DNA of 44,676 nucleotides from Ignavibacteria bacterium (GTDB lineage Bacteria; Bacteroidota; Ignavibacteria; UBA10030; SZUA-254): the NCBI GenBank assembly GCA_016178625.1, contig JACOSX010000131.1:1-44676 (forward strand). Direction: 5' to 3'. This document shows positions 39,547 through 44,676 of the stretch, one piece after another (position 1 is the first letter of the stretch; each line of letters opens with the position of its first letter). The notes beneath the pieces were generated by a model that saw only the letters and a program-made list of their open reading frames with translations, ran no database searches and was not told the origin of the DNA. Both the position numbers and the translations under genes were made by a program.

Positions 39547-39726
39547 ATGTTACATGGTAACATATATGATTGCATTCTGAAATCTTGTGCATCAAGATTC
39601 TTTTCAATCTCTGTCTTGCTACTTGGCATTTATGTTTTGCTTATATCGGCTGGATGCGGGTACACACTCATTAGGAAAGATACTGCAGCGAAATATACCG
39701 AACAGGATGTGTTACCCTCCGAGTAA
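39547..39726 (+). pseudogene. 5' part of a lipoprotein gene, ended by an in-frame TAA
   Basis: 59 codons from the ATG at 39547, with GGAAGG eight bases upstream. The hydrophobic stretch SISVLLLGIYVLLISAGC holds a good lipobox (ISAGC, Cys codon 39655-39657). The frame ends with TAA at 39724-39726 but continues open, in the same frame, through AAA TTG AAC ATG into the next feature. The two together would make a 166-residue lipoprotein. Confidence 0.6.
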
Positions 39727-39729
39727 AAA

Positions 39730-40047
39730 TTGAACATGCTCTGTTCCACTTGGAGAGGAGTCATAGTCACTCGGGATAACGGACAGACTGTGTCCACGGA
39801 TACCGTTTTAGCGTTCACAATTAATCGGGATGGAACTTGGTCGTTGAAAAATCAACTTGGCGTCTTTACAGGACAATGGTCATTCAGGGATGAAAAACCA
39901 GGGTTCTATTTTGCCCTACACTGTGATACCCCAAAGCCAGAATTTAACAAATACTTTGTCGGATATTTCAGAGACGGGGGTTTGGATCTTCACTCTACAC
40001 ACGAAGTACCCCATACGATCGATGTTAAATGGAAGTTAAAACGATAA
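39730..40047 (+). CDS. 3' part of the interrupted lipoprotein, lipocalin-like
   Basis: 105 codons if read from the TTG at 39730 (or the ATG at 39736), but more likely the continuation of the lipoprotein that starts at 39547. STWRGVIVTRDNG, TINRDGTWSL and GQWSFRDEKPGFYF show the repeated Trp-Gly strands of lipocalin-like surface lipoproteins. Alone it would have no export signal and no ribosome-binding site. The next gene begins six bases after its stop. Confidence 0.6.
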   Translation: MNMLCSTWRGVIVTRDNGQTVSTDTVLAFTINRDGTWSLKNQLGVFTGQWSFRDEKPGFYFALHCDTPKPEFNKYFVGYFRDGGLDLHSTHEVPHTIDVKWKLKR

Positions 40048-40762: not shown

Positions 40763-42493
40763 ATGAAAAAGATCCAACTATTATTCACGCTCGCTTTTCT
40801 ATTACTAGCAAATGATCCAATGTGCCTGCATGCGCAATCGCGTTTTCGTGATGCCGCAGACTCACTCGACTGGTGGAACGCGCGCAGGTTTAACCTAAGC
40901 GGACTTCGTCCGTACACACGAAGAGAGATAGATTCAATGAAACAAGAATCTCTGCGGAAACAGTCTCCTCTTACTCCCGTGCCCCCAGACACAACGTTCT
41001 CTGTTGAGAACACAACCGGTAGTCAAGTCGAGGAAGCCAGATTCAAAAATGTCCGGACGGGAAATCAGTCGAGGTTTGAACCTATGATTGCCGTATCTCC
41101 TGTCAACGGTGATTATTTTTTCACAGCGTACGAAGGAGATCTCTGGACCAGTTGTCCGCAGGATAGCATTCCCGATGGCCCTCTCCGCGCTTTGGGTTCG
41201 TTCACAACAAACGGCGGTGCAACCTGGGTGGCTTCTGATATCCCCACATCATGGCTGAAGTACGCTGCGCAGGGCGATCCGGTCATTGCCTACGACGCCG
41301 ATGGGAATCTCTACTATGCATACCTCGATTTCAATAGTGCCTCCTCCCATGAGAATGCTATTATTGTCGGTCAATCAATTGATAACGGTGCGCACTGGTC
41401 GAACCAGTACATCGTGGCTGATAATGACACTCCCAGAACTACCACTGACAACGATAAGGAGTGGCTGGCCTGTGACGTTTCGAACAGCCAGTATCGGAAC
41501 AGCTTATACGTCTGCTGGACTTTGTTTTCCAACAACGAAGCAAATAAGCAGATCCTGTTTAGCTACAAGCGTCCTACAGTCGGCAACTTCACGACTCCAG
41601 TCCCGATTAGTTCCCAGGTTTCATCGCCCTTTCTTGTCCAGGGGTCCCAAGTTGTTGTTGGTAATGATGGCAAGGTGTATGTGTTCTGGTTGAAGCGGGA
41701 AGGGGTAGCGGACAAGGATTCGACGCTCACGGGGTCCTTTTGGATGAACGTGTCGATGGATGGCGGCAAAACCTTTAGCGGTGAGCGGCAATTGACCGAT
41801 CTTGGTACGGTGGTAGATGCGGAGTTACGCGTTGTAGGTGGGTTTTTCCAGCGCTCAAATAGTTTCCCTTCTGTTGCTGTGAGGCAAACGGGAGCGGGGA
41901 ACTACGAACTGTGCCTCGCGTGGTGCGACCTGCGAAATGGGAGGCCGCAAGTGCTTTTCTCGAAGTCGACCGACAATGGCGCACACTGGAATTTCCCCAC
42001 TCCAGTGACTCTCGGCGGAATGGAACAGTTTCTACCATCAATTACGGTGAACAGCCGAGGCATAATCAATGTTGCATACTTCGACCTCGTCGATAGATAT
42101 GGTAGTATCATTCAACTTTCTGTCGCTGAGTCGAAGGATGGCGGTGCCAGCTTTACGAACACTGCGACGCAAAATGGATCGTCCTCAGCATTGGGATTTA
42201 TTGGTGACTACATTGGTATCGCCTCGAACAATTACACGTATTGGGGCGTCTATCCAGCACTCCGCGGAGACTGCACAACAATTCCTTATCACAACGACAT
42301 CCTTGGTACGTATCGTGCGGTGAGCGCGATTGTGGAGAACGATCTTCCCCAAGTGTCTAATGATTCTATCCAATACGATGGTCGATGGCACCGGTCGTCC
42401 TATCCGACACCGTATCTTATTGCAGGGACCTTGAAGGTCATAAAAGCATCAAATCCCAAACAGGCGGGAGGCGAAACTTATTCGTTCAGCTGA
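40763..42493 (+). CDS. Secreted Asp-box (sialidase-like propeller) protein, 5' part ended by in-frame TGA
   Basis: 576 codons. Signal peptide about 1-24 (LLFTLAFLLLANDPMCLHAQS). Residues about 90-530 form a propeller with Asp-boxes of the SxDxGxxW/F type: SIDNGAHW, SMDGGKTF, STDNGAHW, SKDGGASF and a degenerate TTNGGATW. Such propellers occur in exported sialidases and binding proteins; catalytic sialidase arginines are not obvious, so function is open. The frame is closed by TGA at 42491-42493 within a repeat-type domain, but the same frame continues to the window edge. GAGG lies just before the ATG. The two parts should be seen as one gene. Confidence 0.85.
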   Translation: MKKIQLLFTLAFLLLANDPMCLHAQSRFRDAADSLDWWNARRFNLSGLRPYTRREIDSMKQESLRKQSPLTPVPPDTTFSVENTTGSQVEEARFKNVRTGNQSRFEPMIAVSPVNGDYFFTAYEGDLWTSCPQDSIPDGPLRALGSFTTNGGATWVASDIPTSWLKYAAQGDPVIAYDADGNLYYAYLDFNSASSHENAIIVGQSIDNGAHWSNQYIVADNDTPRTTTDNDKEWLACDVSNSQYRNSLYVCWTLFSNNEANKQILFSYKRPTVGNFTTPVPISSQVSSPFLVQGSQVVVGNDGKVYVFWLKREGVADKDSTLTGSFWMNVSMDGGKTFSGERQLTDLGTVVDAELRVVGGFFQRSNSFPSVAVRQTGAGNYELCLAWCDLRNGRPQVLFSKSTDNGAHWNFPTPVTLGGMEQFLPSITVNSRGIINVAYFDLVDRYGSIIQLSVAESKDGGASFTNTATQNGSSSALGFIGDYIGIASNNYTYWGVYPALRGDCTTIPYHNDILGTYRAVSAIVENDLPQVSNDSIQYDGRWHRSSYPTPYLIAGTLKVIKASNPKQAGGETYSFS

Positions 42494-44676
42494 TGGGTGG
42501 ATGAGAATAATGTTTTCATCAGCGGTACGCAAACGACAACGATACCGATTGAAAATCACACTTACACCGCGAAGTTCTCGACGAAGGTCGCCGTCACTCT
42601 GAAAAATGAATTCAAGGATCCAAACAATGTGATCAGTAACGGCGGGATCATCAATATCGACTTCGTTGACAAGAATACCGACTTGACCGGTGGAAAGTTT
42701 GACACGACGTATGGTAAAAATGAGCAGCACCGCTTCGAGGCAAAAGAGCAAACTCGTGGTGCGTATTACCGTGGATTTAACAATCTATCTAATCATGATG
42801 GGGGGTGGGTGTGCCCAGATAGTACAAGATATTTTCCCGTGATTTCAACTCCCGTTCAAGCAGGTACCTACACCGCCAAGTACCGGAACCGGTACGATGT
42901 CTCGGCAACAACAGCAACATATATCGAGGCAGGCAGCGGTGGCACTTACAATGTCAATGGAACGAATGTCGGAGCAATGTGGAGCGGAAACGTGTGGCAG
43001 TACGAGTCAATCACGCTCGAAGCCGTGCCGCCTTCAGGTTTCAACTTCCTCGTCTGGAGCGATGGGAATCAGACCAACCCCAGAACGCTTACCCCAACCG
43101 TTCACACCACGCTATACGCTGTCTTCAAACAACCGCTGAAATCGAACACCGCCACTGCCCTCTCCTCCAACGCCCAGCGCAAGCTTGCAAAGACCACACC
43201 ACCCACACCGAGCCAATCTTCCTTAGCGGCACCCTTCATGCTCTATGAAAGTAGCGGGAGCTCGTTCCTCAGTCGGAAGGACATCCTCGATGAATGGGAG
43301 CCGGAAATCTCCATAGGTGGTGTCCCAACTGCCACTTCCTTCTCACGCAATCCAACGCTTGTTCTCGATGATGTTGGTGTGAACGTTGGCGTCGTCTACG
43401 ACGAGGTCAACACGACCACGTCAACCCACACGATCCAGTACGACGCGTATGATGGTTCTACCGGATCGCCCCCTCTTTTTCCAATCCTCACCATTGACCA
43501 AATGAACGGATCGAGCGATTACCAGCCGATGACTTCCGCTGCCTGGACGCCACATGGGAACACCAAACCCTCGATGTTCTCTGCTACTTGGAGAAAGGAT
43601 AACAGTCTTTACTTTGGCTTGGGATCGTGGGTGAACGGTTTCCCATTTCAACAATTGAGTTGGTCAACCCCAATCGATCTGAACACAGTGGCACCCGGCG
43701 CTTTCAACGGTGCAACCAATCCAGCCATGCTGACGGCCATTTATCCACCGGCAACCACTCAAGTCCCTCAGTTCTACGTCGTGTGGGAAGATCCGAACCC
43801 TACAACAGGCGGCATAAAACTGATTAGAGGCGGCTATAACAATAGTACGTGGCCTCCGCAAGCATCGATCGTGGGATGGAGTCCGGGGCAGACTATTGCG
43901 GCCAACACTCCCACGGAAACGAACAGCAAGCCAACTATTGCAATCGATGGATCCACTAACGTCATGATCGCTTGGGAATACCGTAACACATCCAATGCAT
44001 CGAACCCAATCGGCGAGATCCGCGCACGTCTGTTTCAACCTGCTGATATTCTCGGACCGATGCAGTCGGTTGTAAGCGGCTCCGGCAGCTCGCTACCTTC
44101 AGTACCTTCTATTGCCGATTACCGGAACAGCACATCGAAACAGAATGACTTTACACTCGTCTGGTACACTAATCAAGGAACAGCAGTTGCTCATTACACA
44201 GGTGGAGGATGGGGAATGCCCTACTATGTCGATCCTAACGGGCGAAGCGTTAGCATACAGTCCTCTCTGAACGGATCCGAGGACACTCGCTCTATAGTCT
44301 ACATCGGTTCCTCCGGTCCACCGTACACGATCAACACAAAACTTATCCCGCCACCGACAACACTGTCAAGCGCTGTGACCATCGGTTGGAACATGACGAG
44401 CGTGCCCGCGGGCATGTACAACCTCGGGTTCTGGAACGTCTACCCCACGCATGTGCCGGGCAGTTACGCATTCAGCGCTCACGGTGGGAACTACGTCGAA
44501 GAAGACCCCCTCACGATCCGATCGGGCTACTGGGTGAAGTTCGTCAAAGACACGACAGCCAATTACACCGGTGGTCCGCTGGATAAGTTAACGATCAATC
44601 TCGCAGCCGGTTGGAACATGGTCGGGACGATCTCCAATCTTGTTCAGACCTCCGGCGTCTCGACGAGTCCTGCGGG
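42494..44676 (+). CDS. Continuation of the Asp-box protein after the TGA, open at the window edge
   Basis: 727 codons without a stop, in frame with 40763-42493. It starts with WVDENNVFISGTQ, completing the InlB-like repeat cut by the stop. A second, intact copy lies near 43000-43130 (FNFLVWSDGNQTNPRTLTP, then YAVFK). The remainder includes strand-rich repeats (for example WYTNQGTAVAHYTGGGWG). Near the edge two GWNM segments (GWNMTSVPAG, AGWNMVGTIS) resemble domains that precede type IX sorting domains in Ignavibacteria; such a tail is probably just outside. It has no ribosome-binding site of its own and no signal peptide, so it is not an independent gene. Confidence 0.75.
42500..42520 (+). 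other. Stem-loop directly after the in-frame TGA
   Basis: GATGAGAA and TTTTCATC pair over 8 bp (one G-U) around the loop TAATG, starting six bases after the TGA. It lies where readthrough-stimulating structures are found. The loop begins UA and the distance is short, which does not match the bacterial SECIS rule. Confidence 0.5.

Follow-up and report, generated by a model that had tools for sequence, protein, structure and literature searches.

Background

The closest described counterparts of the gene examined here are cargo proteins of the type IX secretion system that carry BNR (PF13088) and InlB-like (PF18998) repeats together with a Por_Secre_tail domain (PF18962). The gene has the domain make-up of these relatives and, as in its own-genome paralogue C15, a propeller followed by a later block; it differs from them in that it contains an in-frame stop and that its C-terminus lies past a contig edge. 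A second point of comparison is provided by nonsense-interrupted genes and young bacterial pseudogenes (surveyed in Belinky et al. 2021, PMC7918605), with which the gene has in common a single in-frame stop in an otherwise intact frame; the same paper also reports in-frame stops under purifying selection as widespread in bacteria. Finally, tRNA-Trp variants with a 4-bp anticodon stem have been reported to read UGA (PMC13092985). Those variants likewise concern an in-frame UGA, whereas in the genome studied here the anticodon stem of the tRNA-Trp has the regular 5 bp.

A single TGA within a long open frame

The window, by which we mean the whole stretch of DNA that was analysed (44,676 nucleotides), is the entire contig C116 of a draft genome that comprises 177 contigs and 3.36 Mb and is 97% complete. 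As the sequence-only reading had described, a frame beginning at 40763 runs for 576 codons to a TGA at 42491-42493, beyond which no other stop follows for the 727 codons up to the contig edge at 44676. The features of this region are as follows:

40763 to 42490, plus strand: 5' half, with a signal peptide (MKKIQLLFTLAFLLLA...HAQ), a BNR propeller (PF13088) and the beginning of an InlB-like repeat
42365 to 42613, plus strand: InlB-like (Flg_new_2-type) repeat 1, residues 535-617, split by the stop; matched by an independent repeat profile with 37.8 bits across the stop
42491 to 42493, plus strand: in-frame TGA (residue 577), one residue ahead of the conserved Trp in repeat 1
42494 to 44674, plus strand: 3' half, still open where the contig ends, with the remainder of repeat 1, a weak repeat 2 and repeat 3, as well as a second beta-rich block and a C-terminal block of WNM type
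42935 to 43156, plus strand: intact repeat 3 (the second copy of the earlier reading), residues 725-798, 53.0 bits with the repeat profile

In Markov sequence of matched composition, the probability that the frame would stay open for 727 codons is about 4e-11. Codon scores were alike on the two sides of the TGA, and no further lesion was present in the 3' half, whose second beta-rich block is common to C15 and to contig C158 of G001, a Bacteroidota metagenome-assembled genome. No contig in the same genome was found to overlap the window's end and thereby supply the C-terminus; the sorting domain of the interrupted gene is presumed to lie past the contig edge.

The two halves read as one protein

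To follow the repeat across the stop we used a profile that was iterated from a repeat of an own-genome protein, C30, and its relatives, with the loci of the interrupted gene left out. With the two halves joined, this profile ran through the stop (residues 535-617), whereas the halves taken apart scored 4.4 and 18.0 bits. The segment across the stop, scored alone, reached 44.6 bits, as compared with 12.7 bits for the best of 2000 shuffles. Additional domain matches lay at residues 645-717 (weak) and 725-798, the latter being the intact downstream counterpart that had been proposed from the sequence. The placement of the stop directly before the conserved Trp of the repeat also held up. The Pfam models gave a consistent picture: BNR_2 scored 39.6 bits against a cut-off of 31.4, and Flg_new_2 passed its gathering score only with the halves joined (25.4 vs 23.6), so that by Pfam the gene encodes a BNR and InlB-like repeat protein.

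Homology therefore carries on past the TGA in the same frame, as detected by a profile built without the interrupted gene, and intact counterparts that lack the stop are found both among the repeats of other genes and in the uninterrupted C15, on the basis of domain order and the repeat profile. Judged from these comparisons, the two halves belong to one interrupted gene and clearly once formed one protein, as had been suggested.

The residue that preceded the stop is a different matter. The earlier list of source codons (CGA, GGA and TGG) proved incomplete: in relatives, the column before the conserved Trp is variable (S, N, G, D, R and others), and because of this variability the original residue cannot be read from homology. 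An Arg that stood opposite the stop in a forced alignment with C15 was dropped, as the alignment of the junction was not significant against shuffles. For the same reason, C15 supports the order of the parts and not the residue.

Relatives of the interrupted protein

The protein belongs to a BNR-propeller, InlB-like-repeat family in which a type IX secretion sorting domain stands at the end of nearly every complete relative; about 18 complete propeller relatives were found, and nearly all of these continue into that domain. In C15 the propeller and the later block are present in one uninterrupted frame of 1293 codons, with the sorting domain at its end. The interrupted protein is itself a putative type IX secretion cargo. 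Its signal peptide was recognized by eye, and sorting-domain matches number about 115 across the genome. Scans of the genome collection yielded no close relative other than G001, in which C158 is the closest related contig as judged by the C-terminal block.

Separately, we observed at G000:C30:39854-40075 (L071, L120) a frame of 3487 codons that carries a sorting domain in addition to numerous InlB-like repeats.

A recent nonsense mutation as the probable explanation

The sequence-only reading had left mutation, base-call error and local readthrough as options, and the first two of these remain. We consider it very probable that the TGA reflects a recent, ordinary nonsense mutation, present as a young pseudogene or as a strain polymorphism, or else, with less likelihood, a base error in the assembly. 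Under this explanation a single TGA interrupts a secreted BNR-propeller and InlB-like-repeat gene in mid-domain, and translation would stop there to give a truncated product of 576 residues that ends halfway through a repeat. Such a product would retain the propeller and a repeat fragment, would lack the rest of the repeat and the presumed C-terminal sorting domain, and, given what that domain usually does, would be expected to lose export or anchoring. Loss of function is thus predicted, as is the recency of the lesion: should the 3' half now be evolving neutrally, the stop would be younger than roughly 1-4% divergence, with the qualification that a functional read-through gene would likewise show a clean 3' half.

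An error of assembly or base-calling, or a consensus of mixed strains, would mean that the real genome contains an intact gene. This possibility, which also forms a share of the explanation above, is the less likely one, yet it deserves serious weight. The genome is a 177-contig draft and apparently a metagenome bin, and several other long repetitive genes look broken too, one of them by a frameshift at a run of eight C. Against an error at this site, the TGA at 42491-42493 is not at a homopolymer, and model matches over almost the full length were obtained for the conserved genes checked on this contig (pnp, ribF, infB, nusA, gpmI, bshC and others).

Other broken secreted-protein genes

Several of the sorting-domain matches in the genome lie in broken genes. 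In one of these (L140, G000:C45:27639), homology crosses an in-frame TAG and a frameshift is present upstream; in sorting-domain genes on C21, C143 and C159, homology switches frame, which indicates frameshifts. A frameshift near CCCCCCCC, at the run of eight C mentioned above, divides a paralogue of the second half (L180, G000:C143); it may reflect an error in sequencing the homopolymer, decay of the gene or a phase-variable tract, and the literature searched yielded nothing relevant on phase variation at homopolymers in type IX cargo. In another case (L142, G000:C59:17771-17950), a sorting-domain remnant sits directly behind an apparent acetyl-CoA carboxylase beta subunit gene (accD), with the rest of its own gene absent.

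The lesions among the sorting-domain genes involve differing stops and differing kinds of change. Because other secreted-protein genes are broken by TAG, by frameshifts or by reduction to a remnant, the lesion in the window is neither unique nor TGA-specific in this genome. Whether secreted-protein genes break more frequently or assemble worse is a choice for which the comparison is too small. That several large genes of this class are broken in various ways calls for caution when such genes are counted or compared in draft genomes.

Decoding of TGA

RF2 is present in this genome, and of 107 long frames in a 337 kb sample of it, 46 terminate in TGA; infB, ribF and pnp, which had been cited as examples of genuine TGA termination, do all end in this codon. 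The 34 tRNAs detected in the genome include a single tRNA-Trp, whose anticodon is CCA; none of them carries the anticodon UCA or is of the suppressor type. Matches to SelB fell below the cut-off, the best being an EF-Tu-sized frame of 404 codons, and those to tRNA-Sec did so as well. We therefore found no basis for recoding of UGA as either Trp or Sec; the absence of recoding machinery is strong but not absolute, as the genome is 97% complete.

These results weigh on the proposal that local readthrough of the TGA, functional or tolerated, yields some full-length protein, which we regard as improbable. The clean downstream frame is in its favor, as is the reported prevalence in bacteria of in-frame stops under purifying selection (PMC7918605). 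However, in addition to the lack of a suppressor-type tRNA, the anticodon stem of the tRNA-Trp (GCGGU/ACCGC) forms the ordinary 5 pairs, unlike the UGA-reading 4-bp variants (PMC13092985); RNA folding near the stop, including a hairpin after it, is unremarkable (z -1.7 to 0.1); and the same stop was not found in any related genome. Readthrough, as offered by the sequence-only reading, left no sign, although it may occur by chance at a low basal level. It is even harder to credit that the TGA is kept as an inefficiently read stop, one that would limit how much full-length cargo is made or exported and would leave the truncated propeller as a second product.

Two genes or one

Two separate genes that share a frame by chance are highly improbable as an account of the locus. 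Some findings do lean that way: the C-terminal block is modular, as on G001 contig C158 it sits behind a different, protease-like N-terminus; one of the about 18 complete propeller relatives (L025, 398 codons) ends 32 residues past the propeller without a sorting domain; and one pair of genes that share a frame exists in the sampled genome, on C55. The C55 pair had been considered as a second interrupted gene, a candidate that we rejected as the second gene there has its own signal peptide. In the window, by contrast, the boundary falls in mid-domain, a signal peptide is missing from the second half, and the nearest start codons are a GTG at 42497 and a first ATG at 42977 that is within a later repeat. 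It had been proposed that homologues ending at the stop would indicate two genes; among those found, none starts at this position, and L025 is the one that ends shortly past the propeller.

Insertion of selenocysteine, for which the only point is that the codon is TGA, has a negligible probability, given the sub-threshold SelB and tRNA-Sec matches and the absence of Cys among the common residues of the pre-Trp column in relatives. In light of the evidence for a nonsense-interrupted gene, annotation should mark the locus as a single interrupted gene and not as two genes or a recoded codon.

Additional observations

Elsewhere in the genome, the first 1000 bases of two contigs (L174, G000:C19; L181, G000:C90) both encode near-identical ends of a sorting-domain protein, which we read as a contig-edge repeat, either duplicated or collapsed. 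Within the window, 2.8 kb upstream at 39547-40047, a lipoprotein-like signal (LISAGC) is followed about 25 residues on by an in-frame TAA (39724-39726), with a compact domain beyond it in the same frame; this region is possibly a second interrupted gene, or else two small genes.
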